Assembly: GCF_013409345.1 (NCBI RefSeq)
Contig: NZ_JACCBB010000001.1
Location: forward strand, 3,844,001-3,908,000
Reading direction: 5' to 3'
Source of the DNA: Kineococcus aurantiacus
Lineage (GTDB): Bacteria; Actinomycetota; Actinomycetes; Actinomycetales; Kineococcaceae
DNA: 64,000 nucleotides
Shown here piece by piece: positions 14,107 through 58,729 of the stretch. The notes beneath the pieces were generated by a model. It was not told the origin of the DNA. It ran no database searches and was given only the letters and a program-made list of their open reading frames with translations. The position numbers and the translations under genes are program-made. Position 1 is the first letter of the stretch, and each line of letters opens with the position of its first letter.

Positions 14107-15486
14107 GTGAGCACCGAGGCCACCACCGCAGAAGTCCCCCTGCACCGCAGCGCGCCGTCCTCCCGGGGCGTCGACGCGCGCGGCATCGCGTCCTTCGTGG
14201 ACGCCCTGGAGAACATCCCCGGGGTCGAACCCCACAGCCTGGTCGTCGTGCGCCACGGCGACGTCGTGGCCGAGGGCTGGTGGGCGCCGTTCCGGCCCGA
14301 CCGGCCGCACCTGCTGTACTCGCTGTCGAAGAGCTTCACCTCCACGGCGCTGGGGTTCGCCGTCGCCGAGGGTCTGGTGGACCTCGACGCGACGGTCCTG
14401 TCGTACTTCCCCGAGTTCGACGCCGAGGTCACCGACGACCGGTCGCGCCGCATCCTCGTCCGGCACGTCGCGAACATGGCCAGCGGGCACCGCGAGGAGA
14501 CCCTGGACCGGGCCGCGCAGGACCCCGACGGGGACCTCGTGAGGGGTTTCCTGAAGATCCGCCCGGACGCCGAACCCGGGACCCTGTTCTGCTACAACCA
14601 GCCGTGCACGTTCGCGGTGTCGGCGATCGTGCAGCGCGCGTCGGGGCAGGGGCTCCTGGAGTTCCTGCGGCCGCGGCTGCTCGAACCCCTCGGGGTCGAC
14701 CCGTCGACCCTGGGCTGGCTGCGCGACGGGCAGGGGCGCGAACTGGGCTGGTCGGGTTTCCACGCCCCCACCGAGCTCATCGCCAAGCTCGGGAAGCTGT
14801 ACGTGCAGAACGGTTCCTGGGAGGGGCGGCAGCTCCTGCCCGGGAGCTGGGTGTCCGAGGCGACCCGGTCGCACATCGACAACGCCAGTTTCAACGACAA
14901 CCCGGACTGGCAGCAGGGCTACGGTTTCCAGTTCTGGGTCGCGCGGCACGGTTACCGCGGGGACGGCGCGTACGGGCAGTTCTGCGTCGTGCTGCCCGAG
15001 CAGGACACCGTCGTGGCCATCACCTCCCAGAGCCCGGACATGCAGGCCGTGCTGGACGCGGCCTGGGAGCACCTGCTGCCGGCGCTGGGGGCGCAGCTGC
15101 CCGAGGACGCGGCCGCGCACGACGAGGCCCTGGCCCGCAGGTTGTCGGCGCTGGCGCTGCCCCCGGTGGACGGTCCCGCCGTGGCCGACGGGGAGTTCAC
15201 CGCGGCCCCCGGCAGCGAACCGGCCTCGCTGACCCGGGTGGTGCTCTCGGGCGGGGAACTGGCGCTGCACGACTCCGGTGAGGTCCTCACCGCGCGCGTC
15301 GGCCACGGCGCCTGGGAGGACTCCGGGCCGCTGTCGGTCTCCGGTGGCGGTTCCCGCGTCGACGTCCGGTTCGCCGAGACCCCGCACCTGCTGCACCTGG
15401 AACTGGACGGGGAGCGGTTCCGGGCCCGGTGGGAGACCTCCCCGCTGCACGGGCCGGCCCTGTCGGTCCTGCGCCGGCCCGCGTGA
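14107..15486 (+). CDS. Beta-lactamase-fold serine hydrolase (class C/esterase-like)
   Basis: 459 residues from the GTG at 14107. It has the serine beta-lactamase/penicillin-binding fold: the S-x-x-K nucleophile in LLYSLSKSFTSTALGF (about residues 72-75) and the FCYNQPCTFAVS segment at the place of the usual Y-x-N. A C-terminal beta domain follows (about 360-459). There is no signal peptide, so it is probably cytoplasmic, which argues for an esterase, amidase or peptidase rather than drug resistance. Its stop overlaps the start of the lyase-like gene (GTGA), suggesting it prepares or releases a substrate for the same pathway. Confidence 0.8.
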   Translation: MSTEATTAEVPLHRSAPSSRGVDARGIASFVDALENIPGVEPHSLVVVRHGDVVAEGWWAPFRPDRPHLLYSLSKSFTSTALGFAVAEGLVDLDATVLSYFPEFDAEVTDDRSRRILVRHVANMASGHREETLDRAAQDPDGDLVRGFLKIRPDAEPGTLFCYNQPCTFAVSAIVQRASGQGLLEFLRPRLLEPLGVDPSTLGWLRDGQGRELGWSGFHAPTELIAKLGKLYVQNGSWEGRQLLPGSWVSEATRSHIDNASFNDNPDWQQGYGFQFWVARHGYRGDGAYGQFCVVLPEQDTVVAITSQSPDMQAVLDAAWEHLLPALGAQLPEDAAAHDEALARRLSALALPPVDGPAVADGEFTAAPGSEPASLTRVVLSGGELALHDSGEVLTARVGHGAWEDSGPLSVSGGGSRVDVRFAETPHLLHLELDGERFRARWETSPLHGPALSVLRRPA

Positions 15487-16892
15487 TCGTCCACCGGGGC
15501 GCCGACCTCGACCGGGCCGCGGTCCTGGAGGTCGCGGCCGGTGCCCCGGTGGGACTGGCTCCCGCGCTGCTGGCGGCCGTCCGCGACCGCCGGTCGGCGG
15601 TGCTGGCCGCCCTGGAGGAGGGCGGGCCGGTGTACGGCGTGACGACCGGCACGGGCGCGATGGCGGGCGTCGCCCTCGACGCCCGCGCCCGCGCCGCCCA
15701 CCAGGGCAACCTCGTGGTGGGCCGGGCCGTGGGCTCGGCGCCCTGGCTGACGGTGGAGCAGTCGCGCGCGGTCCTCGCCGTGCGGCTGCGCACGTTCCTG
15801 CACCCCGAGGCGGGGGTGTCGGCGGAGCTGTGCGCCCGGCTGGCGTCCCTGCTGGACGAGCGCGTCCACCCCTGCGTGCCGCGGCGCGGCAACGGGGCGG
15901 CGGGGGAGATCATCCCGCTGGCTCACGTCGGGGCGGTCCTGCTGGGCGCCGGCGCCACCCTCGACGGCCGCCGCGCCGGCCCGTTCGCGTTCGGGGCCAA
16001 GGAGGGCATCGCGGTCCTGGAGGGGGTCCCGGTCGCGACCGCCCTGGCGACCGTCGCCGTGCGCGACGCCGCGCGGCTGCTGGACCGCTGCGAGGTGGTG
16101 CTCGCGGCGAGCGCGGAGGTGCTGCGCGCCAGCCCCGACCCGTTCGTCCCCGGGCTCGCGCGCGGCGACGACGACCTGGGCGCCGTCCACGACCGGCTGC
16201 GGGAGCTGCGCCCGGCCCCCGCGGTGCACGGGTTGCAGGCCCCGGTCTCGGTGCGGGTGGCCCCGGTCGCGCTGGCCGTGGCCCGCCGCCGGGTGCGGGC
16301 CCTGGCCGCGGCCGCCGACCGGGCGCTGGAGGGGGTCACCGACTCCCCGGCGTTCCTGGGCGGGGGGTTCACCGGGACGGCGGGGTTCGCCGGCACCGAG
16401 CTGGCCGCGGACTCCGACGCGCTGGCCGCCGCGCTGCTGCACGTGGCCGACACGTCCGTGGCCCGCACCCACCGGGCCCTGGACCCGCGCTGCACGGGGC
16501 TGCCCGCGCAGCTGTCGCCCGAACCCGGCGCGCAGGCCGGTCTGGTGGCGGTGCACAAGCGGGCCGTCGGGGTGGCCCACCGGTTGCGGCGCTTCGCCGT
16601 CCCGGCGCTGCCGGGGGCGGTGGAGACGTCCCTGGGCCAGGAGGACGTGCAGAGCTTCGGGCTGGAGGCGGCCGAGTGCCTGGCGGAGGTGACGGACGGG
16701 CTGCGCGAGGTGCTGGCCGTGGAGCTCCTCGCGGTCCACCGGGCGCGGTTGCTGCGCGGGGGCCCGGGCGGTGTGGGTGGGGAGGCCGCCGAGCTCCTCG
16801 ACGCGGTGGCCGCGGCGCTGGGCGACGACGTGGCCGACCGTCCCTACGGCCGGGACGTGGAGGTGCTCACCGACCTGCTCGCGCGGCCCTGA
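15483..16892 (+). CDS. Aromatic ammonia-lyase-fold protein with Ala-Ala-Gly in place of the MIO triad
   Basis: 469 residues from the GTG at 15483 (4-nt overlap with the hydrolase). Family landmarks of histidine ammonia-lyase are present: YGVTTGTGAM with Tyr51, AKEGIAVLEG, QAPVSVRVAPVALA, VTDSPAFLGG and GQEDVQSFGLEAAE. The segment that should autocyclise to the MIO electrophile, Ala-Ser-Gly in canonical enzymes, reads NGAAGEIIPLAH, giving Ala139-Ala140-Gly141. Without a Ser/Cys in the middle, MIO should not form. The protein is therefore either inactive as an ammonia-lyase or eliminates a better leaving group (for example trimethylamine, as reported for ergothionase). The last 26 nt overlap the LacI gene on the other strand. 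Confidence 0.85.
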   Translation: MIVHRGADLDRAAVLEVAAGAPVGLAPALLAAVRDRRSAVLAALEEGGPVYGVTTGTGAMAGVALDARARAAHQGNLVVGRAVGSAPWLTVEQSRAVLAVRLRTFLHPEAGVSAELCARLASLLDERVHPCVPRRGNGAAGEIIPLAHVGAVLLGAGATLDGRRAGPFAFGAKEGIAVLEGVPVATALATVAVRDAARLLDRCEVVLAASAEVLRASPDPFVPGLARGDDDLGAVHDRLRELRPAPAVHGLQAPVSVRVAPVALAVARRRVRALAAAADRALEGVTDSPAFLGGGFTGTAGFAGTELAADSDALAAALLHVADTSVARTHRALDPRCTGLPAQLSPEPGAQAGLVAVHKRAVGVAHRLRRFAVPALPGAVETSLGQEDVQSFGLEAAECLAEVTDGLREVLAVELLAVHRARLLRGGPGGVGGEAAELLDAVAAALGDDVADRPYGRDVEVLTDLLARP

Positions 16893-17910
16893 GGGGCGCG
16901 CCCGTGGAGCCCCGCACGACGAGGTGGGGGCGGAAGACGACGGGCTCGGGGGCCGGGTCGGGGGCCGGGCCGGTGCCCCGGCCGGTGCTCTCGAGGGCCA
17001 GGAACTGCTGGACGGCCGCGGCGACGATGGCGTCCTCGTCCCAGGAGACCGTCGTGAGGGCGGGGGCCACGAGCGCGGCGAGCTGGTGGTCGTCGAAACC
17101 GACGACGGACACGTCGTCGGGCACGCGCAGGCCGAGGTCCGCGGCGGCGCGGTAGACGCCGAAGGCGAGGGAGTCGGACAGGCAGAACACGGCGGTGGGC
17201 CGGTCGGTGGCGGTGAGGACCCCGGCGGCGGCCTCGGCGGCGGCCACGGGGGAGGCGGGGGACGGGACGACCAGCAGGTCGATCCCGCGCGGTGCGGCCA
17301 GTTCCACCGCGAGCCGTTCGGCCGGGCGCCCGGGCGTGGTGGGCAGCGACGGGGTGAGCAGGGCCACGCGCCGGTGCCCCAGGCCGCGCAGGTGGTCCAG
17401 GACCTGGCCGATGCCGAACCGGTTGTCGAACAGGACGGCGCCGCTGCCGGGGCGGGCGGTGAGGGCGTCGCCGAGGGAGACGACGGCCGTGGCGGGGTCG
17501 AGCAGCCGCCAGTACTCCGCGGAGGGGTCGACGGGGGAGACGAGGGCGCCGTCGACGCGCTGGGCGGCGAACCGCTCCACGACGCGCTGCTCGGTGCGGG
17601 GGTCGGCGTCGGCGTCGGCGATGGTGGCGTCCTTGTCCAGGGTCCGCAGGGCGCGGGTGAGCTGGACGGACAGGTCCTGCTGCCACAGGTCGCGCAGCGA
17701 GCCGCTGATCCCGACGGTGCCGGTGCGGCCGCTGGCCAGGGCGCGGGCGATGGGGTCGACGCGGTAGCCGAGCTCGAGGGCCAGGGCCTGGACGCGCTCG
17801 ATGGTGGCCGCCGAGCCGCGCGTGCCGCGCAGGGCGTACGACGTGGCCGCCAGGGACAGCCCCGCCGCGTCCGCGACGTCCTGCAGCGTCCTGCGCGAGT
17901 CCCTCGGCAC
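16867..17910 (-). CDS. LacI family transcriptional regulator
   Basis: 347 residues from the GTG at 17910. The N-terminal helix-turn-helix and hinge (TLQDVADAAGLSLAATSYAL, then RVQALALELGYRVDPIARAL) are typical of LacI/PurR. The periplasmic-binding-protein-like sensor domain covers about residues 60-330 (TVGISGSLRDLWQQDL, AVFCLSDSLAFGVYRAA, VVGFDDHQLAALVAPALTTV). It most likely represses the divergent amidohydrolase-cupin pair and itself through the two GTGAAGCGCTTCAC operators at 17970-18007. LacI effectors are usually sugars or nucleosides, but small catabolic substrates occur. Confidence 0.92.
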   Translation of the reverse strand: MPRDSRRTLQDVADAAGLSLAATSYALRGTRGSAATIERVQALALELGYRVDPIARALASGRTGTVGISGSLRDLWQQDLSVQLTRALRTLDKDATIADADADPRTEQRVVERFAAQRVDGALVSPVDPSAEYWRLLDPATAVVSLGDALTARPGSGAVLFDNRFGIGQVLDHLRGLGHRRVALLTPSLPTTPGRPAERLAVELAAPRGIDLLVVPSPASPVAAAEAAAGVLTATDRPTAVFCLSDSLAFGVYRAAADLGLRVPDDVSVVGFDDHQLAALVAPALTTVSWDEDAIVAAAVQQFLALESTGRGTGPAPDPAPEPVVFRPHLVVRGSTGAPLRAARAGR

Positions 17911-17916
17911 GGCTGA

Positions 17917-17922
17917 ACAGTA
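17917..17922 (-). promoter_or_regulatory. Probable -10 element of the lacI-family gene
   Basis: On the minus strand TACTGT is followed by 6 nt and the GTG at 17910, without a ribosome site. It lies 47 bp from the nearer operator, so looping or autoregulation is possible. Confidence 0.45.
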
Positions 17923-17955
17923 GCCGCCGGGGTGGTGCGGACCGCCCCGCCCGAC

Positions 17956-17984
17956 TTGACGCGTCGATCGTGAAGCGCTTCACT
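17956..17984 (+). promoter_or_regulatory. Possible promoter of the amidohydrolase-cupin operon, overlapping operator 1
   Basis: TTGACG (17956-17961) is a good -35; a 17-nt spacer leads to TTCACT (17979-17984), a poor -10 that lies within and just past operator 1. A repressor bound there would block RNA polymerase. Confidence 0.3.
17970..17983 (+). promoter_or_regulatory. LacI-family operator 1
   Basis: GTGAAGCGCTTCAC is a perfect 14-bp palindrome with the central CG of LacI/CcpA-type operators. It lies 60 nt upstream of the amidohydrolase start and 60 nt upstream of the lacI-type start on the other strand. Confidence 0.8.
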
Positions 17985-17993
17985 CGAGACTGT

Positions 17994-18007
17994 GTGAAGC
18001 GCTTCAC
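17994..18007 (+). promoter_or_regulatory. LacI-family operator 2
   Basis: An identical second copy of GTGAAGCGCTTCAC, 24 bp centre-to-centre from operator 1. Two exact copies in the divergent intergenic region of a LacI-type gene make regulation by that protein very likely. Confidence 0.8.
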
Positions 18008-18029
18008 GCCGAGACGGGGGAGGGACGCG

Positions 18030-18959
18030 GTGCGGACGGACTGCCACCAGCACCTGTGGCCCCCCGCGCTCCTGGACGCCCTGCGCGCCCGCCGCGACCC
18101 GCCCCGCCTGCGCCCCGGGACCGGCGGCTGGACGCTGGACCTGCCCGGCGAACCGCCCTGCCTCCTCGACCCCGCCGCCCACGACGTCGCCGCCCGCGCC
18201 GCCGCCGAGCGCGCCGACGGGACCGCCCGCGCCCTCGTCTCCCTCTCGGCCCCCCTGGGCCTGGAGCACCTGCCGGGGGAGGAGGCCGAACCCCTGCTGC
18301 GCGCCTGGCACGAGGGGGCCACGGCCTTCGGCGACCCCTTCGCGGTCTGGGCCGCCGCCGGCGTCACCGACCTCGACCCCGGCGCCCTCGCACGCACCCT
18401 GCGGCACGAGCGCGTCGTCGGGCTCCAGCTGCCGGCCACCGCGCTGGCCACCCCGCGGGCCGTCGAGCGCCTGGGCCCCCTGCTGGCCGAGTGCGAACGC
18501 GCCGGCCGGCCCGTCCTGGTCCACCCCGGCCCCGCCGCCGCGACCGCCGGGGCCGGGTCCGACGTCCCGTCCTGGTGGCCCGCCCTCGTCCCCTACGTCC
18601 AGCAGCTGCACGCCGCCTGGCTGGCCTGGCACGTCGCCGGCCGCGCCCAGCACCCCCGCCTGCGCACCGTCTTCGCGGCCCTGGCCGGCCTGGCCCCGCT
18701 GCACCACGAACGGCTCGCCGCCCGCGGCGGGGCCCTGGGCCGGCTCGACCCGAACGTGCACTACGAGACGAGCTCCTACGGCCCGCGCGCGGTCGACGCC
18801 GTGGTCCGCGTCGTCGGCGTCGACCCCCTCGTCCTGGGCAGCGACCGGCCCTACGCCCAGCCCTTCGACCCGGCCGGGCTGCCCGGCTTCGGCGAGGCCT
18901 TCGCCCACGCCCTGACCACCGCCAACCCCGCCCGCCTGCTCGAAGGGGACCGACCGTGA
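18030..18959 (+). CDS. Amidohydrolase (amidohydrolase_2 family)
   Basis: 309 residues from the GTG at 18030, which follows GGGGGAGGGA. The metal-dependent TIM-barrel hydrolase features are visible: N-terminal DCHQHLW (H-x-H), VLVHPGP with a third His at about residue 169, and a late GSDRPYAQPFDP with the catalytic Asp. Family members hydrolyse lactones or amides, or decarboxylate aromatic acids. An in-frame ATG at 17970 lies inside the operator and is rejected as a start. Its stop overlaps the cupin gene (GTGA), so both are made together under LacI control. Confidence 0.85.
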   Translation: MRTDCHQHLWPPALLDALRARRDPPRLRPGTGGWTLDLPGEPPCLLDPAAHDVAARAAAERADGTARALVSLSAPLGLEHLPGEEAEPLLRAWHEGATAFGDPFAVWAAAGVTDLDPGALARTLRHERVVGLQLPATALATPRAVERLGPLLAECERAGRPVLVHPGPAAATAGAGSDVPSWWPALVPYVQQLHAAWLAWHVAGRAQHPRLRTVFAALAGLAPLHHERLAARGGALGRLDPNVHYETSSYGPRAVDAVVRVVGVDPLVLGSDRPYAQPFDPAGLPGFGEAFAHALTTANPARLLEGDRP

Positions 18960-19501
18960 CGACCACCCCCCACACCCCCCACACCCCGCGCACCCCCCGC
19001 GTCCCCGGGCTGCCCGCGGCCCCCGGGCGCACGCTGAGCCCCCGCGAGCTGCAGGACTGGGTCGACGAGGCCGCCCGGCACCCCCGGGCCTGGGAGCACC
19101 TGGTCCGCCACGACACCGGCGGCCGGCACTTCGCCGGCCTGCACCGCGACGGCGACCTCGACGTGTGGCTGCTGTGCTGGAACACCGTCGACGACACCGG
19201 CTGGCACGACCACGACACCTCCTCCGGGGCCGTGGCCGTCACCCGCGGCGCCGTCGTCGAGGCCACCCCCCGCATGGGCGGCGACCCCGTCCGGCGCACC
19301 GTCGCCGCGGGCCGGTCCTTCGGCTTCGGCCCCGACCACATCCACCGCATGAGCGGTGGCGTGGACGGGTCGGTGTCGATCCACGCCTACTCCCCGCCGC
19401 TGTGGCGGATGGGGCAGTACTCGATCTCCCCCTCGGGGGTCCTGCGCCGCACGTCGGTCAGCTACGCCGACGAGCTACGACCCCTCCAGACGGAGGAGTA
19501 G
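18956..19501 (+). CDS. Cysteine-dioxygenase-type cupin (thiol dioxygenase family)
   Basis: 181 residues from the GTG at 18956. After a Pro/Thr/His-rich N-terminal tail (about residues 1-25) comes a cupin with the three-His iron site of cysteine dioxygenases: GWHDHDTSSGAVAV (His84, His86) and GPDHIHRMSG (His130). It continues with SIHAYSPPL, which holds the Tyr conserved in thiol dioxygenases (Tyr145). The family adds O2 to thiols to give sulfinates; known substrates include cysteine and 3-mercaptopropionate. Within this cluster it suggests a sulfur-containing substrate. The 3' end overlaps the second lyase-like gene by 27 nt. Confidence 0.85.
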   Translation: MTTTPHTPHTPRTPRVPGLPAAPGRTLSPRELQDWVDEAARHPRAWEHLVRHDTGGRHFAGLHRDGDLDVWLLCWNTVDDTGWHDHDTSSGAVAVTRGAVVEATPRMGGDPVRRTVAAGRSFGFGPDHIHRMSGGVDGSVSIHAYSPPLWRMGQYSISPSGVLRRTSVSYADELRPLQTEE

Positions 19502-20980
19502 CGCCAGGTCCGCCACCCGGGCCACCACCCGCTCCACGTCCGGGCCGATGGGGGCGTCGCGCGCGTCGCGGTCCAGGACCTCGTCGAACACCCCGAACAG
19601 CGCCGCCGCGCCGGGGCTGAGCCGGTCGGGGGCCGCGCGCAGCGCCCGCACCGCGGCCAGCGCCTCCACCGCCAGGACCACCGGGGCCAGCTCCGCGGTC
19701 TGCCGCAGCGCGCGCGCCCCCTGGGTGGCGAAGCTGGCGTGCTCCTCCAGGCCCAGCGAGATCGACACCGTCCCGGCCGTCATGGGCGCCGTCGCCGGGC
19801 GCAGCTCGGCCAGGACGTCCTGCACGACGTACTCACCGATCATCAGCCCCGAGCTGCCGCGCGGGCCGGCCGCCAGGAACGCCCGCAACCCCGTGTGCTC
19901 GGGCCGCAGCAGCAGCGCCAGCCGCGCCGCCGACAACGTCAGCACCCCGTAGGTGGTGGCGCGCAGCGTGTCCAGCGCCGTCGCGAGCGAGGCCGCGTGG
20001 AACTGCCCGTGGTGGAAGACGCCCTCGGCGGAGACGAGCGGGTTCTCCCCGGGCGTCGAGGCCTCCAGGACCAGCACGTCGGCCAGGGCGTCGGCCGCGG
20101 CGAAGGCCGGGGCCAGCACCTGCGGGACGGTCCGCAGCGCGAACGGGTCCTGCAGCCGCGCCGGGGCCGGGCCGCCCCCGACCAGCCCCGACAGGGCCGC
20201 CGCGACCTGCGGCTGGCGCGCGTGCGGGCGGGCGGCGTGCACCCGCGGGTCCCACGCCTGCGGGTTGCCCCGCAGCGCCAGGAAGGACAGCGCCGAGATC
20301 CCCAGCCCCGCCAGCAGCTGCTGCCGCAACCGGACCAGGGCCAGCGAGGCGGTCGCCAGCGTCAGGGCGTGCGAGGAGATCAGCGGCAGCGCGTCCGCCG
20401 GGCCCAGGGGGACCGGCGGCACCGACCCCGCCCGCCACGGCCGCTCCCCGACGAGGGTCAGCCCCAGCTCGGCCAGCGGCGCCAGGTCGGAGGTGCCGAT
20501 GCCGCCGAACCGGTGCAGCGTCGGCTGGGCGTCGGTCTCCACCGCCTCGGCCAGCGCCCCCAGCACCGGGGCGCTGAGGCCGGCCCCCAGCCCGGCGTGG
20601 GCCCCGGCCAGCAGCTGGTTCAGCCGCACCGCCAGCGCGGCCCGCGTCGTCGGGGCGTCCTCCACCGGGCCCAGCGACGCCGCGTGCGAGCGCAGCAGCC
20701 GCAACCCGTGCGCGCGGGGGTGCTCGCCCTGCTCCTCGTCGACCTCGACGTCCTTGTTGGCCCCGACCCCCGTCGTCGCCCCGTAGACCGCCCCGGCCCC
20801 GCGCGCGGCGTCCATGGCCGCGCTCACCGCGCCCAGCGCGCCCAGCGCGTGCCGGTCCACGACCGGCCGGGCCCGCCCGTGCGCCAGGTCGTCCAGGTCG
20901 CCCAGGTCCACGGGCCGCCCCGACAGCACCAGGGCCCGCAGGACCCCCGGGGTCGCCGCGGGGACGTGCTGGTGGTCCAC
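19475..20980 (-). CDS. Second ammonia-lyase-fold protein, Gly-Thr-Ser in place of the MIO triad
   Basis: 501 residues from the GTG at 20980, chosen for the GGAGG 4 nt upstream; a GTG at 21022 lacks a ribosome site. HAL-family landmarks: AVYGATTGVGANKDV (Tyr66, Lys76), RLNQLLAGAHAGLG, ASTPGENPLVSAEGVFHHGQFH and LGLEEHASFATQGAR. The MIO segment reads GGIGTSDLAPLAEL. Aligned on DLAPLA, the triad is Gly162-Thr163-Ser164 rather than Ala-Ser-Gly, so a standard MIO is not expected. It is a diverged paralogue of the 15483-16892 protein and faces the importer operon across a 134-nt divergent region. Ergothionase-like trimethylamine lyase is a possible role; alternatives are an aminomutase or non-catalytic homologue. 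Confidence 0.85.
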   Translation of the reverse strand: MDHQHVPAATPGVLRALVLSGRPVDLGDLDDLAHGRARPVVDRHALGALGAVSAAMDAARGAGAVYGATTGVGANKDVEVDEEQGEHPRAHGLRLLRSHAASLGPVEDAPTTRAALAVRLNQLLAGAHAGLGAGLSAPVLGALAEAVETDAQPTLHRFGGIGTSDLAPLAELGLTLVGERPWRAGSVPPVPLGPADALPLISSHALTLATASLALVRLRQQLLAGLGISALSFLALRGNPQAWDPRVHAARPHARQPQVAAALSGLVGGGPAPARLQDPFALRTVPQVLAPAFAAADALADVLVLEASTPGENPLVSAEGVFHHGQFHAASLATALDTLRATTYGVLTLSAARLALLLRPEHTGLRAFLAAGPRGSSGLMIGEYVVQDVLAELRPATAPMTAGTVSISLGLEEHASFATQGARALRQTAELAPVVLAVEALAAVRALRAAPDRLSPGAAALFGVFDEVLDRDARDAPIGPDVERVVARVADLALLLRLEGS

Positions 20981-21019
20981 TTGTCCTCCATCCGCCGCTG
21001 GTGGGTCCCCGGGGGAGGT

Positions 21020-21044
21020 CACGATCAGGTGACGGCTGATCGTG
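21020..21044 (+). promoter_or_regulatory. Inverted repeat, candidate operator between the lyase gene and the importer operon
   Basis: CACGATCAG - 7 nt - CTGATCGTG is a perfect 9-bp inverted repeat directly upstream of the importer -35 box and 40 nt upstream of the lyase start codon. Its sequence differs from the LacI operators, so a different regulator should bind it; none is encoded next to it. Confidence 0.55.
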
Positions 21045-21049
21045 CCTCG

Positions 21050-21078
21050 TTGACCGGTCCCCGAGCCGTGCCCAGCAT
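21050..21078 (+). promoter_or_regulatory. Probable promoter of the quaternary-amine importer operon
   Basis: TTGACC (21050-21055) and CAGCAT (21073-21078) are separated by 17 nt. A GGGAG ribosome site (21102-21106) and the GTG at 21115 follow. The adjoining inverted repeat sits just upstream of the -35, an activator-like position. Confidence 0.45.
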
Positions 21079-21114
21079 GGACCAGCCGACCGGCCCAACC
21101 AGGGAGCCGCCCCA

Positions 21115-22083
21115 GTGATCACCTTCGAGGCCGTCCGCAAGCAGTTCCCGGACGGGACCGTCGCGGTCGACGACCTCGACCTCGAGCTCCCGACCGGGCG
21201 GATCACGGTCTTCGTCGGGCCCTCCGGCTGCGGCAAGACGACGTCGCTGCGCATGATCAACCGGATGCTCGAACCCACCGGCGGCACCGTCGCCATCGAC
21301 GGCCGCGACGTCCGCAGCCAGGACCCGGCCACCCTGCGCCGCGGCATCGGGTACGTCATCCAGCACGCCGGGCTCTTCCCGCACAAGACCGTCCTGGACA
21401 ACGTCCTCACCGTGCCCCGGCTCGTCGGCCGGGGCCGGGAGCGGCACCGGGCCCTGGAGCTGCTCGAACGGGTCGGCCTGCCCGCGGCCCTGGCCGACCG
21501 GTACCCCGCCCAGCTGTCCGGCGGGCAGCAGCAGCGCGTCGGCGTCGCCCGCGCGCTGGCCGCCGACCCGCCCGTCATGCTCATGGACGAACCCTTCAGC
21601 GCCGTCGACCCCGTCGTCCGCGGCCAGCTGCAGGAGGAGTTCCTGCGGCTGCAGGCCGAGCTGGGCAAGACCATCGCCATCGTGACCCACGACATCGACG
21701 AGGCCGTCGTCCTGGGCGACCGCATCGCCGTCTTCCGCCAGGGCGGCCACCTCGCCCAGGTCGGCACCCCCGAGGAACTGCTGACGAAACCCGCCGACGC
21801 GTTCGTCCGCGACTTCGTCGGCCGCGACCGCGGGTACCGGGGCCTGAGCTTCCAGGGCAGCGAGGGTCTGGTCCTGCGCCCCCTCGACGGGGTCGCCCTC
21901 GACGAGCAGGGCCGGCCCGTGGGGGTCGACGGCACGTTCCGCGCCGGCGACTCGCTGCGCGTCGTCGTCGACCTCACCCTCACCTCGCCCACGGGCACGG
22001 CCGTCCAGGTCGACGACCAGGGGCGGGCCACCGGCCTCGTGCACCACCACGACGTCGTCGACCTGCTGGAGAAGCGCCGGTGA
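21115..22083 (+). CDS. ABC importer ATPase, OpuCA/ProV type (quaternary amine uptake)
   Basis: 322 residues from the GTG at 21115. Nucleotide-binding motifs: GPSGCGKTTSLRMINRM (Walker A), LSGGQQQRVGVARAL (signature), VMLMDEPFSAVDP (Walker B) and THDIDEAVVLGDR (switch His). IRRGIGYVIQHAGLFPHKT is the Q-loop stretch typical of the betaine/carnitine/choline OpuCA group. A degenerate C-terminal domain after about residue 240 replaces the tandem CBS domains seen in classical osmosensing members. First gene of a four-gene operon with overlapping starts; it powers import of a compound bound by the lipoprotein encoded at 23487. Confidence 0.92.
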   Translation: MITFEAVRKQFPDGTVAVDDLDLELPTGRITVFVGPSGCGKTTSLRMINRMLEPTGGTVAIDGRDVRSQDPATLRRGIGYVIQHAGLFPHKTVLDNVLTVPRLVGRGRERHRALELLERVGLPAALADRYPAQLSGGQQQRVGVARALAADPPVMLMDEPFSAVDPVVRGQLQEEFLRLQAELGKTIAIVTHDIDEAVVLGDRIAVFRQGGHLAQVGTPEELLTKPADAFVRDFVGRDRGYRGLSFQGSEGLVLRPLDGVALDEQGRPVGVDGTFRAGDSLRVVVDLTLTSPTGTAVQVDDQGRATGLVHHHDVVDLLEKRR

Positions 22084-22736
22084 ACTCGGTCCTGGACTAC
22101 CTGCGGCAGAACCAGTCCACCGTCCTGGACGCCCTGGGTCAGCACGTCGTCCTGGCGGTCGTGCCGCTGCTCGTCGGCGTCCTCGTCGCCCTGCCCATCG
22201 GCTACCTCGGGGTGCGCTTCGGCTGGCTGTACCACCCCATCCTCAACGTCTCGGGGATCGTCTACTCCATCCCCTCGCTGGCGGTGTTCGTCGCACTGCC
22301 CTACGTGCTGGGCACGAAGATCCTCTCGCCCGTCAACATCGTCGTGGCCCTGGCGATGTACACGGTCGCGCTCATGGCCCGCACGGTCGCCGACGGGTTG
22401 CGCTCGGTCGACCCCGCGCTGACGGAGGCGGCCACGGCCATGGGCTACAAGCGGACCCGCCGCCTGCTGGAGGTGGAGCTGCCGCTGGCCGCCCCCGTCA
22501 TCCTCGCCGGGGTCCGGGTCGCGGCCGTGTCGAACATCTCCCTGGTCAGCGTCGGCGCCCTGCTGGGGATCGGCGGCCTGGGGGCGCTGTTCACCCGGGG
22601 TTTCCAGTTGTTCTACACCGCACCGATCATCGTGGGCATCGTGCTGTCGATCGCCCTGGCCGCGGCGGCGGACCTGCTCATCGTCGTGTTCCAGCGCGCG
22701 GTGACGCCGTGGACGCGCGCCGTGATGGGGGCCTGA
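22080..22736 (+). CDS. ABC importer permease, OpuCB/OpuCD type (first)
   Basis: 218 residues, GTG start overlapping the ATPase stop by 4 nt. Five or six transmembrane helices are visible, beginning with VVLAVVPLLVGVLVALPIGY. The cytoplasmic EAA-type loop that docks on the ATPase reads ADGLRSVDPALTEAATAMGYKRTRRLLEVELPLAAPVIL (about residues 105-142; Gly in MGY). Members transport glycine betaine, choline, carnitine and, in the EgtUV group, ergothioneine. Specificity resides in the binding protein and cannot be read here. Confidence 0.92.
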   Translation: MNSVLDYLRQNQSTVLDALGQHVVLAVVPLLVGVLVALPIGYLGVRFGWLYHPILNVSGIVYSIPSLAVFVALPYVLGTKILSPVNIVVALAMYTVALMARTVADGLRSVDPALTEAATAMGYKRTRRLLEVELPLAAPVILAGVRVAAVSNISLVSVGALLGIGGLGALFTRGFQLFYTAPIIVGIVLSIALAAAADLLIVVFQRAVTPWTRAVMGA

Positions 22737-22737
22737 C

Positions 22738-23490
22738 GTGGACGACACGCCGTACCTGCTCGACGGCGCGCACTGGGCGTGGTCGACCTCCGGGTCGATC
22801 CCGCACCTGCTGCTGGCGCACCTGCAGTACACCGCGCTGGCGGTGCTCGTGGGTTTCGTCATCGCCTTCCCGCTGGGCCTGCTCATCGGGCACACGGGCC
22901 GGGGCGCGTTCTGGGCCATCAACGCCGGGAACGCGGGGCGTTCGCTGCCCACCCTGGGACTGCTGAGCCTGCTCGTCGTCTACATGAGCAGCCAGGGTTT
23001 CCTGCCGGTGCTCATCGCCCTGGTCGTCCTCGTCGTCCCGCCGATCCTCACGTCCACCTACGCGGGATTGCGCTCGGTGGACCCGAACGCCGTCGACGCG
23101 GCCCGGGGGATGGGCATGAGCTCGGCGCAGGTGCTGTTCCGCGTCGAACTGCCCATGGCCCTGCCGGTCGTCTTCGGCGGTGTGCGCGCCGCGGTGCTGC
23201 AGGTCGTCGCCACAGCGACCGTCGCGGCCTACGTCGGGTTGTCCGGCCTGGGCCGGCTGCTCGTGGACGGCCTGGCGCTCAACGACTACGGGCGCATGGT
23301 CGCCGGCGCGGTGGTGGTGGCCGTCCTCGCCGTCGTCCTGGACCTGCTGCTGGGGCTCGTGCAGCGGTACGCCGTCTCACCCGGCATCACCGGCCGCGGA
23401 CTGCGGCGCGCACGGGGCACCCGATCCGTGGCAGAGTCCGGGGCGCAATCGTCAGAACTGATGTCCGCAACACCAGGAGGCACGTCATGA
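22738..23490 (+). CDS. ABC importer permease, OpuCB/OpuCD type (second)
   Basis: 250 residues from the GTG at 22738, one base after the previous stop. It has about six membrane segments (LQYTALAVLVGFVIAFPLGL first) and its own EAA loop (LRSVDPNAVDAARGMGMSSA). A hydrophilic C-terminal tail of about 30 residues overlaps the beginning of the binding-protein gene (ATGA). Two distinct permeases encoded beside one ATPase imply a heterodimeric channel, as in OpuC systems. Confidence 0.92.
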   Translation: MDDTPYLLDGAHWAWSTSGSIPHLLLAHLQYTALAVLVGFVIAFPLGLLIGHTGRGAFWAINAGNAGRSLPTLGLLSLLVVYMSSQGFLPVLIALVVLVVPPILTSTYAGLRSVDPNAVDAARGMGMSSAQVLFRVELPMALPVVFGGVRAAVLQVVATATVAAYVGLSGLGRLLVDGLALNDYGRMVAGAVVVAVLAVVLDLLLGLVQRYAVSPGITGRGLRRARGTRSVAESGAQSSELMSATPGGTS

Positions 23491-24425
23491 ACCGCAGGAA
23501 CCTGCTCGGCCTGGCCCTCGTGGGCACCGTGACCGCGGGCCTGGCCGCCTGCGGTGGCGGTGACGACCCGCTGGCCGCCGACCCCGGCTCCAGCTCCAGC
23601 TCGTCGGCCGACGCCTCGACCGTCATCGTCGGCTCGGCCAACTTCCCCGAGAGCGAGCTGCTCGCCGAGATGTACGCCCAGGTCCTGGAGGGCGAGGGCG
23701 TCACGGTGCAGCGCAAGTTCAACATCGGGGCCCGGGAGCTGTACCTCAAGGCCCTCGACGACGGCTCGATCGACCTGCTGCCGGAGTACAACGGCGCGCT
23801 GCTGGCGTACTACCTCAAGGGTGACGCGCCGGAGGGCGTGTCCAGCCCCGAGACGGTGCTGGCCGCCCTGAAGGAGCAGCTGCCCGACGGCCTGGAGGTC
23901 CTGGACCAGTCGGCCGCGGAGGACAAGGACTCCCTGACCGTCAGCGCCGAGACGAAGGCGAAGTACGACCTGACCTCCATCGCGGACCTGGCCCCGGTGG
24001 CCGGGGACCTCGTCATGGGGGCCGGCCCGGAGTTCCAGGAGCGCTACCAGGGCCTGGTCGGGCTCAAGGAGCTGTACGGCGTCGAGTTCAAGGAGTTCAA
24101 GCCCCTCGACGTCGGCGGCCCGCTGACCGTCGCGGGCCTGAAGGACGGCTCGATCCAGGTGGGCAACCTCTTCACGACGGACTCGGCCATCACGACCAAC
24201 CGGTTCGTGGTCCTGGAGGACCCGAAGAACCTGTTCCTGGCCCAGAACGTGCTGCCGCTCATCCGGTCCTCGAAGAACACCGACGCCATCACGACGGCCC
24301 TCAACGCGTTCTCCGCCAAGCTCACGACGGACAACCTCACGACCTACCTCGCCAAGGTGTCGGTCGACAAGCAGGACTCCGCGACCGTCGCCAAGGCGTT
24401 CCTCACGGACAACGGCCTGGCCTGA
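23487..24425 (+). CDS. Quaternary-amine-binding lipoprotein of the ABC importer (ProX/OpuCC type)
   Basis: 312 residues from the ATG at 23487 with AGGAGG upstream. A lipoprotein signal (LLGLALVGTVTAGLAAC, Cys22) anchors it outside the membrane, followed by a Ser-rich linker. The mature domain is of the OpuAC/ProX class: STVIVGSANFPESELLAEMY, GARELYLKALDDGSIDLLPE and YNGALLAYYL where osmoprotectant-binding members usually have Y-T-G-T. These proteins hold trimethylammonium groups in an aromatic cage. Given the neighbouring lyase-like genes, histidine-betaine-type ligands (ergothioneine, hercynine) are as plausible as osmoprotectants. Confidence 0.92.
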   Translation: MNRRNLLGLALVGTVTAGLAACGGGDDPLAADPGSSSSSSADASTVIVGSANFPESELLAEMYAQVLEGEGVTVQRKFNIGARELYLKALDDGSIDLLPEYNGALLAYYLKGDAPEGVSSPETVLAALKEQLPDGLEVLDQSAAEDKDSLTVSAETKAKYDLTSIADLAPVAGDLVMGAGPEFQERYQGLVGLKELYGVEFKEFKPLDVGGPLTVAGLKDGSIQVGNLFTTDSAITTNRFVVLEDPKNLFLAQNVLPLIRSSKNTDAITTALNAFSAKLTTDNLTTYLAKVSVDKQDSATVAKAFLTDNGLA

Positions 24426-24537: not shown

Positions 24538-26724
24538 TCAGGCGGGGACGAGCCAGGTGACGCCCAGCGGCGGCACCCGCAGGCTCACGGAGAACTGCTG
24601 GCCGTTCCAGGCGATGTCCTCGGCCTGCAGGGTGCCGGTGTTGACGACACCGGACCCGGCGAACTCCGCGGCGTCGGTGTTGAGGACCTCGCGCCAGACC
24701 CCCGGCTGCGGCACGCCGACGCGGAAGTCCTCGTACGGCCCGCCGGAGAAGTTGCAGACCGCCACCAGCGGTTTGCGGTCGGTGCTCCACCGGGCGAAGG
24801 ACAGGACGTTGCGCGCGCTGTCGCCGCCGTCGATCCACTGGAAGCCCTCGGACGTGAAGTCGTCGGACCACAGCTCCGGCCGGGCCTTGTAGACGGCGTT
24901 CAGCTCCGAGACGAGGCGGTGCAGCCCCTGGTGCCACGGGGTGTCCAGCAGCCACCAGTCCAGCGACCGCGCCTCGGACCACTCGGCCTCCTGGCCCAGC
25001 TCGGCGCCCATGAACAGCAGCTGCTTGCCCGGGTGGGACCACATGTACGCCAGGTAGGCGCGGACGTTGGCGAGCTGCTGCCAGCGGTCCCCGGGCATCT
25101 TGCGCAGCAGGGACCCCTTGCCGTGCACGACCTCGTCGTGCGAGATGGGCAGGCAGAAGTTCTCGCTGAACGCGTAGACGAGGCTGAAGGTCAGCTCACC
25201 GTGGTGGTACTGCCGGTTGACCGGGTCCTGGCTGGCGTACTGCAGCGAGTCGTGCATCCAGCCCATGTTCCACTTCAGCCCGAAGCCCAGACCGCCCCCG
25301 CTCGTGGGGGCCGTGACGCCCGGGTAGGCCGTGGACTCCTCGGCGATCATCATGATGCCGGGCGTGCGCTTGTAGGCGGTGGCGTTCGCCTCCTGGAGGA
25401 AGCTGATCGCCTCCAGGTTCTCCCGGCCGCCGTACCGGTTCGGCACCCACTCGCCCTCGTTGCGGGAGTAGTCCAGGTACAGCATCGAGGCCACGGCGTC
25501 GACGCGCAGACCGTCGGCGTGGAACTCCTCCAGCCAGTACAGCCCCGACGCGACGAGGAAGTTGCGCACCTCGCTGCGGCCGAAGTTGGGGATGTAGGTG
25601 CCCCAGTCCATGTGCTCGCCCAAGCGCGGGTCCGGGTGCTCGTACAGCGCGGTCCCGTCGAAGCGGGCCAGCGCGAACTCGTCCTTGGGGAAGTGGCCCG
25701 GGACCCAGTCGATGATGACGCCGATGCCGGCGCGGTGCAGGGAGTCGATGAGGAACCGCAGCTCGTCGGGGGAGCCGAACCGCGACGTCGGCGCGAAGTA
25801 CCCCGTGACCTGGTACCCCCACGAGCCCCCGAACGGGTGCTCCATGACGGGCAGGAACTCCACGTGCGTGAAGCCCGTGGTCTTCACGTACTCCACCAGC
25901 TCGGTCGCCAGCTCGGTGTAGGACAGCCCCTGCTTCCACGAACCCAGGTGCACCTCGTAGATGGACACCGGGCCGTCCTGCGCGGAGCGCGCGGCGCGCT
26001 GCTCCATCCAGTCCTCGTCGCCCCACCGGTAGCTGCTCGCGGTGACGACCGACGCCGTCGCCGGGGGCACCTCGGTGGCCTGGGCCATCGGGTCGGCCTT
26101 CTGCCGCCAGTGCCCGTCGGCCCCGAGGATCTCGTACTTGTACCGCGACCCCACGCCGACGCCGGGCAGGAACAGCTCCCACACCCCCGACGAGCCCAGC
26201 GAGCGCATCGACTCCCCGCGGCCGCTCCAGTGGTTGTGGTCGCCCACCACGCGGACCGCGCGGGCGTTCGGCGCCCACACGGCGAACGCCGTGCCGTCGA
26301 CCGGTCCCAGCGGGCCCTCCCAGTGCTTCACGTGCGCACCCAGGACGTTCCACAGCTCCTCGTGCCGGCCCTCGCCGATGAGGTGCAGGTCGACCTCGCC
26401 GACGCTGGGCAGGAAGCGGTACGGGTCGTCCAGCACCACCGGCTCGGCGTCGGGGTAGGTCACCTCCACGCGGTAGTCGCCCACCGCGGCGTCGGGGCGG
26501 ACACCGACCCAGACGCCGTCGTACTCGTGGACGAGCCCGACGCGCGCGCCGTCCTCGGTGACGACCGTGACGGCCGAGGCGAACGGCTTCAGGACGCGGT
26601 AGGTGACGGCGCCGTCGTGGGCGTGCGCCCCCAGCACCGAGTGCGGGGACCAGTGCGCCCCGGCGGCGGCCCGGGCCAGTTCGTCGGCGTCGACGGGGCG
26701 AGGTGCAGCGGCGTGACCGGTCAT
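24538..26724 (-). CDS. glgB: 1,4-alpha-glucan branching enzyme
   Basis: 728 residues from the ATG at 26724. It introduces alpha-1,6 branches into linear alpha-glucan made by GlgE. N-terminal CBM48-type domains (ARAAAGAHWSPHSVLGAHAH, about residues 10-110 and 120-230) precede the GH13 barrel with VEFLPVMEHPFGGSWGYQV, DGLRVDAVASMLYLDYSRN (nucleophile Asp), MMIAEESTAYPGVT (acid Glu) and PISHDEVVHGKGSL. Length is normal for actinobacterial GlgB. It is the last gene of glgE-mak-glgB, 37 nt after mak, and ends just before the shared terminator. Confidence 0.97.
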   Translation of the reverse strand: MTGHAAAPRPVDADELARAAAGAHWSPHSVLGAHAHDGAVTYRVLKPFASAVTVVTEDGARVGLVHEYDGVWVGVRPDAAVGDYRVEVTYPDAEPVVLDDPYRFLPSVGEVDLHLIGEGRHEELWNVLGAHVKHWEGPLGPVDGTAFAVWAPNARAVRVVGDHNHWSGRGESMRSLGSSGVWELFLPGVGVGSRYKYEILGADGHWRQKADPMAQATEVPPATASVVTASSYRWGDEDWMEQRAARSAQDGPVSIYEVHLGSWKQGLSYTELATELVEYVKTTGFTHVEFLPVMEHPFGGSWGYQVTGYFAPTSRFGSPDELRFLIDSLHRAGIGVIIDWVPGHFPKDEFALARFDGTALYEHPDPRLGEHMDWGTYIPNFGRSEVRNFLVASGLYWLEEFHADGLRVDAVASMLYLDYSRNEGEWVPNRYGGRENLEAISFLQEANATAYKRTPGIMMIAEESTAYPGVTAPTSGGGLGFGLKWNMGWMHDSLQYASQDPVNRQYHHGELTFSLVYAFSENFCLPISHDEVVHGKGSLLRKMPGDRWQQLANVRAYLAYMWSHPGKQLLFMGAELGQEAEWSEARSLDWWLLDTPWHQGLHRLVSELNAVYKARPELWSDDFTSEGFQWIDGGDSARNVLSFARWSTDRKPLVAVCNFSGGPYEDFRVGVPQPGVWREVLNTDAAEFAGSGVVNTGTLQAEDIAWNGQQFSVSLRVPPLGVTWLVPA

Positions 26725-26761
26725 GCGTGTGAGTCTCCCGTGATCGTGGGGGACCCGCCTC

Positions 26762-28153
26762 TCAGGACGGGTCGGACAGCAGCCGGTGGACGGCGTCCAG
26801 CGGGATGCGCAGCCAGTCGGGCCGGTTGCGCGCTTCGTACACGACCTCGTAGAGGGCCTTGTCGAGCTCCAGCGCCGCCAGCAGCACGGACTGACCACCC
26901 GCGCGCGGGTCGGTCCCCGCCACGGCCGCGTACCCGTCGAGGAACGCCTCGCGGCACTGCGCGCCCCAGGTCCCGGCGTCGGGGACCGTGGAGGCGGCGT
27001 AGTCGAAGGAGCGGAGCATCCCCGCGACGTCGCGCAGGGCCAGGTCGGGCAGGCTGCGCTCGGCCAGCGGTCGCAGCGGTTCGCCCTCGAAGTCCAGCAG
27101 CACCCAGCCGCGGGCGCTGGAGTGCAGCACCTGCCCCAGGTGGTAGTCACCGTGGACCCGTTGCAGCGCAGGCGCTCCCGTGACGTGCCGGACGGCGTCG
27201 ACACGGGCGCGGGCCGCGGCGGCGACCTCGTGCAGCTGCGGGACGGCGGTGCACGCCCACGCGACGCGTTCCAGCAGCCCGTCGGCCAGGGCGGCCAGCC
27301 GTTCCGGCGTCGCCGGCTCGGTGGGCAGCTCGGCGGCCAGGACCGCGTGCACCTCGGCGGTGGCCCCACCCAGCTCCCGGGCCTCGGTGGTGAACCCGCG
27401 GCCCTCGGCCACGGCGGCCGTCGCGACGCGCCAGGCGTCCTGCGACCCGGCGAGGAACTCGGTCACGTGGGCCAGCTGACCGACGGCCAGCTGCCCGTCC
27501 GGACCCGTCCACTGCCCGTCGACCCAGCCCGCGGGGCGCGGGACCCGCCCGCAGCCGGCGTCGGCCAGCGCCGTCTGGACGACGACGTCGGGGTTGTCCC
27601 CGGCGGACAGCACCCGGAACACCTTGGCGATGAGCGGGGTCTCGCCCTCGTCGGCCGACACCACGACGGAGGTGTTCGACTGCTCGCCCGAGAGGACCTT
27701 CGTGCGCGCCCCGGCGGGGACCGGCAGGCCCCCCTCGGCGCTGTGGCCGTGGACGCCGAAGGTCGTCGACCCCGCTCCCTCCTCGCTGGCCACGAGGGTC
27801 AGCAGCGCACGGGTCCAGGTCGGGTCGTGCGGGCCGTCGTAGATCCACGCCGGTGCGCCGTCGACGTCGGGCAGTTCCCCGACCAGGGCGTGCGCCAGGT
27901 CGGGGTCCGGGGCCGGGCGCACCGAGATCGGCACCGAGTAGACGGTGTGCGCCGCGTCGTGGCCCTCGCCCGAGCGGACGGTCAGGGCGACCAGCTGCGC
28001 GACCCCGCCCTCGTCGAGGGGGGTGCGCTCGAGGCGCTCGACGTGCGCGAGGACCCCCTTGTGCGCGAACCACCGCTGCCGGGGGGCCCACCCGCGCAGG
28101 AGCTCGGCGATGGCCTCGTCGGAGGCCTTGGACGTCACGACCGGGACTCCCAC
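26762..28153 (-). CDS. mak: Maltokinase
   Basis: 463 residues; phosphorylates maltose with ATP to maltose-1-phosphate, the donor for GlgE. The N-terminal cap domain is recognisable (ELLRGWAPRQRWFAHKG, about residues 19-35). The kinase C-lobe has VHGDYHLGQVLHSSARGWVL with the catalytic Asp and VLLDFEGEPLRPLAERS with the metal-binding Asp. Start GTG at 28153 with GAGGG 7 nt upstream; a second GTG at 28138 preceded by GGGAG is almost as good. It begins 3 nt after the glgE stop. In many relatives treS lies beside or is fused to mak; no such gene or domain is found here. Confidence 0.93.
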   Translation of the reverse strand: MGVPVVTSKASDEAIAELLRGWAPRQRWFAHKGVLAHVERLERTPLDEGGVAQLVALTVRSGEGHDAAHTVYSVPISVRPAPDPDLAHALVGELPDVDGAPAWIYDGPHDPTWTRALLTLVASEEGAGSTTFGVHGHSAEGGLPVPAGARTKVLSGEQSNTSVVVSADEGETPLIAKVFRVLSAGDNPDVVVQTALADAGCGRVPRPAGWVDGQWTGPDGQLAVGQLAHVTEFLAGSQDAWRVATAAVAEGRGFTTEARELGGATAEVHAVLAAELPTEPATPERLAALADGLLERVAWACTAVPQLHEVAAAARARVDAVRHVTGAPALQRVHGDYHLGQVLHSSARGWVLLDFEGEPLRPLAERSLPDLALRDVAGMLRSFDYAASTVPDAGTWGAQCREAFLDGYAAVAGTDPRAGGQSVLLAALELDKALYEVVYEARNRPDWLRIPLDAVHRLLSDPS

Positions 28154-28156
28154 CGC

Positions 28157-58403: not shown

Positions 58404-58729
58404 AGCGACACCTCCACGAGCCCGTCTGTGGTGACCCGACAAGGATGCACCGCGATCGGCCCCTCCCCGCCCGCGGACTCACCCGTGGTGAGGTCGAACG
58501 TGGCCAGGTGCAGCGGGCACACCACGACCCGCTCGTCGACCTGTCCGTCGGCCAGCGGCCCGCCCGCGTGCGGGCAGGCGGCCTGCACGGCGCTGACCCG
58601 GCCGCTGCGGTGCCGGAACAGCGCGACCTGCTCGCCGTCGACGACGTACGTCCGGCCCTCCCCGACGGGCAGGTCCTCGACCCGGCACACCGCCGTGGGG
58701 CTGGCGGTGGGGCTGGTGGTGCCGTTCAC
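58400..58729 (-). CDS. nirD: Nitrite reductase small subunit NirD (Rieske domain)
   Basis: 109 residues from the GTG at 58729, overlapping the nirB stop and the cysG start by 4 nt each. It has a Rieske-type [2Fe-2S] fold with ACPHAGGPLADG (C-x-H) and VVCPLHLATFDLTTG (C-x2-H); both Cys and both His ligands are present. It forms the assimilatory NADH-nitrite reductase with NirB and passes electrons toward siroheme. About 15 N-terminal residues before the domain are Pro/Thr-rich. Confidence 0.93.
   Translation of the reverse strand: MNGTTSPTASPTAVCRVEDLPVGEGRTYVVDGEQVALFRHRSGRVSAVQAACPHAGGPLADGQVDERVVVCPLHLATFDLTTGESAGGEGPIAVHPCRVTTDGLVEVSL

Follow-up and report, generated by a model that had tools for sequence, protein, structure and literature searches.

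The 64,000-nucleotide stretch of Kineococcus aurantiacus DNA analysed here, hereafter the window (C1:3844001-3908000, C1 being contig NZ_JACCBB010000001.1 in a two-contig genome of 5.03 Mb), carries between positions 14107 and 24425 a gene cluster that is highly likely to be an ergothioneine-type catabolic island, and we lean towards the view that it salvages ergothioneine and its oxidised forms by the routes proposed below. At its centre are two proteins with the histidine ammonia-lyase (HAL)/phenylalanine ammonia-lyase fold, lyase A and lyase B, both devoid of the Ala-Ser-Gly triad of the 4-methylideneimidazole-5-one (MIO) site. They are accompanied by a serine hydrolase, an amidohydrolase, a thiol-dioxygenase-type cupin, a LacI-family repressor with twin operators and an OpuC-type importer, all of which open reading frame (ORF) and domain searches found within these limits. 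The original prediction had seen in this set an island for the import and breakdown of a trimethylammonium betaine of the histidine type, and the analysis supports it.

The substrates of the island are all ones that we infer, and the route would run as follows. The OpuC-type importer would take the compound up, the cupin would oxidise the thione to a sulfinic acid and the amidohydrolase would free SO2 from it to leave hercynine (both by orthology to enzymes reported as characterised), after which lyase B, judging from its residues and neighbourhood, would split hercynine into urocanate and trimethylamine. This last step would need no MIO because trimethylammonium leaves readily by itself. From urocanate on, HutU and HutI, whose genes lie outside the island, would complete the breakdown, and LacI acting at the twin operators would control the dioxygenase/hydrolase operon. 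A hercynine trimethylamine-lyase yielding urocanate is thus the best reading of lyase B, and a role for lyase A as the lyase of a sulfonate branch is plausible but less sure.

The evidence begins with the MIO site, which reads GNGAAGEIIPLAH in lyase A and GGIGTSDLAPLAE in lyase B. In an alignment of 59 rows, the 14 HutH sequences carry G(C/A/S)SGDL; the motif is G(A/T/S)(A/S)GE among lyase A and relatives (HALa), GT(S/G/A)DL among lyase B and relatives (HALb) and IGEGDI in the Treponema denticola ergothionase (6S7J), with HALa, HALb and the ergothionase each one residue shorter than HutH in the MIO loop. Loss of MIO abolishes ammonia-lyase chemistry in the HAL family, and the absence of the Ala/Cys/Ser-Ser-Gly triad from both proteins rules them out as ordinary HutH. 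The third PF00221 gene of the genome (C1:2462809-2464191), 1.4 Mb away, retains the triad and is an ordinary HutH with HutU and HutI genes next to it, so that the earlier remark that no urocanate hydratase is visible holds for the island and not for the genome. When the tree was computed without the MIO-loop and Asn195 columns, HALa, HALb and the ergothionase fell together with a rhizobial type and three unusual actinobacterial lyases in one group apart from HutH (support 98/93), which places both lyases with ergothionase and not with HutH. Within this group, HALa (13 rows, deep) and HALb with its relatives (19 rows) are separate groups (100/100 each), and 6S7J joins the rhizobial type (95/92), with neither HALa nor HALb on its branch.

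The main other active-site residues are kept, the equivalents of Tyr53, Gln277, Arg283 and Glu414 being invariant throughout the 13 HALa and 19 HALb rows, which makes catalytically dead proteins unlikely. Judged by their sequences, lyases A and B are not equivalent. The position of HutH His83 (also position 83 of 6S7J) is His in HALb (19/19) and the ergothionase and Arg in HALa (13/13) and the rhizobial type (2/2), and position 383 of 6S7J is Lys in HALa (13/13), the rhizobial type (2/2) and the ergothionase, Tyr in HALb (19/19) and Tyr (10), Val (3) or Thr (1) in HutH. The corresponding residues in the window are Arg81 and Lys359 in lyase A and His113 and Tyr398 in lyase B. We infer from this pattern that the Lys is tied to a sulfur-bearing ring and the Arg to an oxidised, anionic sulfur, and that HALb reads a bare ring as HutH does; this bare-ring His/Tyr pattern fits lyase B acting after the dioxygenase and the hydrolase.

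The comparison with T. denticola ergothionase cuts both ways. The window lyases share with it the HAL fold, the missing MIO, the loop deletion and the tree group, lyase A has its Lys, and lyase B has its His as well as its Ser (HALb combines the one-residue deletion with the same Asn-to-Ser change). They differ from it in being only 22-25% identical in structural alignments, lyase A has Arg for the His, and the Lys, whose part in catalysis is presumed, is found in 0/19 HALb sequences, on which ground lyase B is unlikely to be a plain ergothionase. Structural ranking is weak evidence here: 6S7J is the top PDB structure match for the lyase B model (predicted local distance difference test score, pLDDT, 84.8) and the ninth for lyase A, and in PDB sequence searches it surfaced only with the rhizobial lyase as query, other queries ranking other structures first.

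The sulfur-removing pair is best introduced by the cupin, whose best PDB sequence match (phmmer) is 8QFL, a chain named 'Cysteine dioxygenase' in the PDB table that we take to be the ergothioneine dioxygenase of Thermocatellispora tengchongensis. With the product of the T. tengchongensis gene in locus L056, which matches 8QFL at 100% identity over 158 residues, the cupin shares 64% identity; in that locus, as in the window, an amidohydrolase gene is adjacent and LacI and HALb-type genes lie in the same stretch; the window adds the importer, the second lyase and the serine hydrolase. Nalivaiko and colleagues are said to have described both the ergothioneine dioxygenase and a partner hydrolase, metal-dependent, that frees SO2 so that trimethylhistidine (hercynine) remains, the compound at which the T. 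tengchongensis pathway reportedly ends, and the sulfinic acid hydrolase of that species is presumably the gene homologous to the window amidohydrolase. The cupin residues His84, His86, His130 and His143 are kept in all 79 homologues, with His130 or His143 as metal ligand, and the HxH motif and further metal-type His/Asp residues of the amidohydrolase are invariant or nearly so in 74 homologues. From these sequences, the cupin and the amidohydrolase most likely take the sulfur off before the trimethylamine step. The earlier idea that the cupin acts on the sulfur therefore stands, with the amidohydrolase now drawn in and the order of events changed. In PMC13405746, the Burkholderia route is described as passing through thiourocanate, with a MIO-less HAL relative eliminating trimethylamine; the lyase B branch resembles it in using such a relative and differs in that the sulfur is probably off before the lyase acts.

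The genes of the island co-occur in many genomes. A cupin scan of genome contigs gave 183 confirmed stretches, from the best 80 of which 78 loci, all close to the window cupin, were kept and scored (identity of 45% or more over 100 residues; the motif in the case of lyases; a gene of the ornithine-cyclodeaminase/mu-crystallin family, PF02423, which is absent from the window and is discussed below, by tblastn at E <=1e-30). The dioxygenase is accompanied in the same stretch by the amidohydrolase in 74 of the 78 loci, by LacI in 62, by a HALb-type lyase in 51, by lyase A in 33, by the cyclodeaminase-family gene in 31, by the importer ATPase in 38 and by the lipoprotein in 35. In 62 loci the flanks reach 6 kb or more on each side; of these, 27 hold the full scored set of eight, namely the two lyases, LacI, hydrolase, dioxygenase, ATPase, lipoprotein and the cyclodeaminase-family gene, and 15 have LacI, hydrolase, dioxygenase and HALb as the only scored parts. 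In a survey of 296 genomes drawn across the class, with E cut-offs of our own choosing that exclude HutH (HALb <=1e-95, dioxygenase <=1e-35), HALb was found in 9/17 genomes with the dioxygenase versus 14/279 without it (Fisher p 3e-7; 8/16 and p 2e-6 when the genome of the window is left out). The two genes are less than 3 kb apart in six of these nine genomes (that of the window included) and on different contigs in the other three.

The wider genome and the regulatory region agree with this picture. EgtD had no match in the genome of the window, a search that matched 30 of 60 class genomes (28 above the cut-off), so that the organism, judged by gene content, probably scavenges ergothioneine rather than synthesising it. 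The two operators are identical 14-bp palindromes lying 24 bp apart, whose 12-bp core has two matches in the 64 kb, both exact although one mismatch was allowed (0.04 expected; none of 100 shuffles had two). Both copies are retained in all five complete same-genus islands that were read (L139-L143; spacing 20-26 bp), and a GAANCGNTTC site occurs between the LacI and amidohydrolase genes at least once in all eight other-genus loci checked and twice in seven of them.

The importer operon is complete, with an ATPase, two permeases and a ProX-type lipoprotein, and the part of the earlier claim that finds no support is its link with EgtU. Taking as reference the pocket residues given in PMC9732360 for Archaeoglobus fulgidus ProX and EgtU, the window system is like the EgtU importer in its OpuC-type family, its ProX fold and its conserved Glu and Arg (Glu182 and Arg186), and unlike it in having separate ATPase, permease and lipoprotein genes and an altered cage, Lys and Gly. 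On one pairwise alignment with ProX/EgtU extended to 38 lipoproteins, Y63 is kept in 38/38, Y190 is Phe in 37/38, Y111 is Asp in 38/38 (Asp148 in the window), Y214 is Glu in 25 or Gln in 12 and the pocket Lys K13 is Ala in 38/38, the EgtU Gly being replaced by Phe. Lacking the four-aromatic cage and the Lys, the pocket leads us to reject EgtU-type binding. The protein is conserved within islands in this non-EgtU form, and candidates for its ligand are the thione, the sulfonate and hercynine. In two other loci (L045 and L050), lipoprotein matches come as a tandem pair and the stretch opens with an additional dioxygenase gene, in L050 with a hydrolase fragment.

Lyase A brings in a second gene family. 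The gene just before it belongs to the ornithine-cyclodeaminase/mu-crystallin family in 31 of the 33 loci that have lyase A (0-198 bp apart; the two without are L009 and L075), and none of the 78 loci has this gene without lyase A. A protein of the same family, 56-58% identical, is encoded with at most one gene between it and an Arg/Lys lyase in Rhizobium sp. 11515TR, Martelella and Rhizobium johnstonii pRL12, the latter two with hutC and a glycine-betaine-type importer alongside (by annotation); no OpuC-type set was seen in the Rhizobium sp. 11515TR stretch. In Streptomyces chartreusis its neighbour is an Arg/Lys lyase, and the same stretch holds an OpuC importer together with an amidohydrolase homologue (56%) and a short cupin match (38%); in Paraburkholderia the lyase, roughly 2 kb away, is ergothionase-like and of the His/Lys type. 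Plasmid records hold close relatives of the rhizobial lyase in 72 cases (E <=1e-100), 68 of them Rhizobium, and the cyclodeaminase-family protein in 84 (E <=1e-80); among the annotated rows listed, the lyases (for example NC_008378.1:815377-816882) are mostly called hutH or histidine ammonia-lyase, the Arg/Lys residues having been confirmed in three rhizobial or Martelella proteins.

The presence of this gene beside both lyase A and the rhizobial Arg/Lys lyases suggests a second branch for ergothioneine sulfonate. Lyase A would act on a ring with an oxidised sulfur, most likely ergothioneine sulfonate, trimethylamine leaving first, and the cyclodeaminase-family protein, found in most other lyase A genomes, would then remove sulfite reductively from 2-sulfourocanate (an NAD(P)H-dependent member could add a hydride at C2, thereby releasing sulfite), so that both branches would meet at urocanate. 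A bacterial ergothioneine sulfonate pathway has been published, which PMC13405746 links to Agrobacterium radiobacter. If its lyase is of the rhizobial Arg/Lys type, lyase A and the cyclodeaminase-family protein would be the actinobacterial counterpart, with the difference that lyase A belongs to a separate deep group and that the genome of the window has no match to the partner protein. What mostly sits before lyase A in Kineococcus is instead the serine hydrolase: eight further genomes of the genus gave ten stretches, and it directly precedes lyase A in six of these, one in each of six genomes, taking the place of the cyclodeaminase-family gene in most of the islands read. Its SxxK motif is kept in these six and the window (SLSK in six, SVSK in one); among the 78 other loci it has a match in one (35% identity), and so far it is found at lyase A only in Kineococcus islands. 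The full scheme, a two-branch funnel to urocanate with a hercynine lyase on one side and a sulfonate-specific lyase plus reductive desulfonase on the other, a residue code (His/Tyr for bare ring, His/Lys for thione, Arg/Lys for sulfonate) and a Kineococcus swap of desulfonase for serine hydrolase, is offered as a tentative proposal that could well turn out wrong.

How well does all this hold? The dioxygenase and hydrolase assignments are based on orthology to the enzymes that Nalivaiko and colleagues reportedly described, and several findings weigh against the scheme. Approximately unbiased (AU) tests neither establish nor reject a grouping of HALb, ergothionase and rhizobial type without HALa (p-AU 0.37) or of HALa with the rhizobial type (p-AU 0.18), HALa is not uniform at the Asn195 equivalent (nine Glu, three Ala, one Asn), and the lyase A model is closest to HAL structures, with Pseudomonas putida HAL as best PDB match. 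Neither lyase is found in 14 of the 62 well-flanked dioxygenase loci, HALb is present in 14 genomes that lack the dioxygenase, 11 of which belong to one genus, and the binding protein has lost two of the four EgtU aromatics along with the Lys and Gly. Concerning the sulfonate branch, the Cupriavidus campinensis cyclodeaminase-family gene has no such lyase within 8 kb, and one Kineococcus lyase A at a contig end (G065) has neither serine hydrolase nor cyclodeaminase-family gene in the preceding 8.3 kb (in G066, which shares a contig start with the Kineococcus siccus record L015 at 9000 of 9000 identical bases, the contig starts too near lyase A to show the preceding gene). The cyclodeaminase-family query found no match in the genome of the window, in a search run without a positive control, which leaves the desulfonation step without a candidate and makes this branch weakest in the very window under study. 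Lyase A might alternatively act on a different betaine, or on one freed by the serine hydrolase from an ester or amide, with no relation to ergothioneine sulfur. The missing partner speaks for it, and so does another Kineococcus genome (G069), in whose stretch lyase A stands with the serine hydrolase and the importer while the dioxygenase, amidohydrolase, LacI and lyase B are all missing, and where whole-genome searches (700 contigs) gave no dioxygenase match and one lyase A-query match only, hence no second one, HutH included. Lyase A nevertheless has the Arg and Lys of the rhizobial lyases that adjoin the same cyclodeaminase-family protein (with hutC in annotated records) and lies within dioxygenase loci in 33 of 78 cases, and we regard this alternative as unlikely, albeit one to be taken seriously.

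For lyase B, the competing idea is that of an ergothionase acting directly on ergothioneine or its sulfinic acid, with the dioxygenase and hydrolase acting on thiourocanate or forming a separate protective system. The loop deletion, the Asn-to-Ser change and the top structural rank of 6S7J are what one would expect from it, but the absence of the ergothionase Lys from all 19 HALb sequences is not; nor is the fact that HALb travels with dioxygenase and hydrolase in the absence of lyase A (the 15 loci mentioned above), or that one stretch (L149) combines a HALb-type gene with HutH and an OpuC importer but has no dioxygenase. We therefore consider it improbable. That one or both lyases are dead proteins with a regulatory or scaffolding role, which the loss of MIO chemistry might suggest, is very hard to reconcile with the invariant active-site residues and with the fact that ergothionase, a MIO-less relative in the same tree group, is an active enzyme. 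Hercynine cleavage by lyase B remains our preferred reading. Among the titles listed by literature searches, none pointed to a paper on the hydrolase, the hercynine lyase or the cyclodeaminase-family link, which does not establish their absence from print.

If correct, this reading would (i) close the aerobic ergothioneine pathway beyond hercynine, (ii) give a testable MIO-free function to two families annotated as 'histidine ammonia-lyase', and (iii) explain why many soil actinobacteria keep such lyases in one island, while adding to the sources of trimethylamine. There is also a practical side, since public records give a number of MIO-less relatives the label hutH or histidine ammonia-lyase, which misleads reconstructions of the histidine pathway.

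The features of the island are listed below. The serine hydrolase and lyase A genes overlap by four bases, and lyase B and the cupin overlap tail to tail by 27 bases; the starts given for the amidohydrolase (probable) and the lipoprotein are corrected ones.

Features of the candidate ergothioneine island (positions in the window)
Feature	Position	Strand	Evidence
Serine hydrolase, beta-lactamase/LACTB family, coupled to lyase A	14107..15486	+	PF00144 E 6e-36
Lyase A (HALa), MIO-less HAL fold	15483..16892	+	PF00221 E 3.6e-81; model pLDDT 91.5
LacI-family repressor, divergent to amidohydrolase/dioxygenase operon	16867..17910	-	PF13377 E 8e-30; PF00356 1.2 bits below cut-off
LacI-type operator 1, GTGAAGCGCTTCAC	17970..17983		palindrome
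LacI-type operator 2, identical to operator 1	17994..18007		palindrome
Metal-dependent amidohydrolase, candidate ergothioneine sulfinic acid hydrolase	18030..18959	+	PF04909 E 7e-11
Thiol-dioxygenase cupin, candidate ergothioneine dioxygenase	18956..19501	+	CDO_I PF05995; 8QFL E 2e-67
Lyase B (HALb), MIO-less HAL fold, candidate hercynine trimethylamine-lyase	19475..21022	-	PF00221 E 1.9e-87
OpuCA/ProV-type importer ATPase	21115..22083	+	TIGR01186 298 bits, cut-off 327
OpuCB-type permease	22080..22736	+	PF00528
OpuCD-type permease	22738..23490	+	PF00528
ProX-fold substrate-binding lipoprotein, non-EgtU pocket	23487..24425	+	OpuAC domain PF04069 E 9e-50

A few additional observations concern the lyases and their surroundings. 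Three loci of the same phylum (L109, L111 and L116) hold more MIO-deleted HAL relatives, with (V/M)(S/N)(A/N)N at the Asn195 site and outside HALa and HALb, and lyase B in L014 and lyase A in L025 are each broken into two reading frames, through decay or assembly error. In another genome of the phylum (G041; L149:5500-12076), genes for a true HutH, all parts of an OpuC importer and a HALb-type lyase follow one another in a stretch where the dioxygenase gave no match. MIO-less HAL relatives of a third kind, with the motif GSVGY---LIATAH, are found on the Klebsiella pneumoniae plasmid NZ_CP138739.1 (L124:3986-5515) and in L123 and L127. These proteins, labelled aromatic amino acid ammonia-lyase or hutH, adjoin an ABC importer (osmoprotectant-type by annotation in Neorhizobium), with hutU, hutC, hutD and formimidoylglutamate deiminase genes as neighbours in Klebsiella and CoA-linked genes in Neorhizobium, and may represent a hercynine lyase that arose independently. 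Upstream of the lyase in R. johnstonii pRL12, and separated from it by four genes, is a putative sulfate exporter. In the window itself, the island is followed by genes for a glycogen branching enzyme and a GlgE-type maltosyltransferase (24538-30199), and further on (57192-61215) by genes for a methylase of the sirohaem-synthase type and for a NirB-like nitrite/sulfite reductase, which might conceivably use sulfite from the island.

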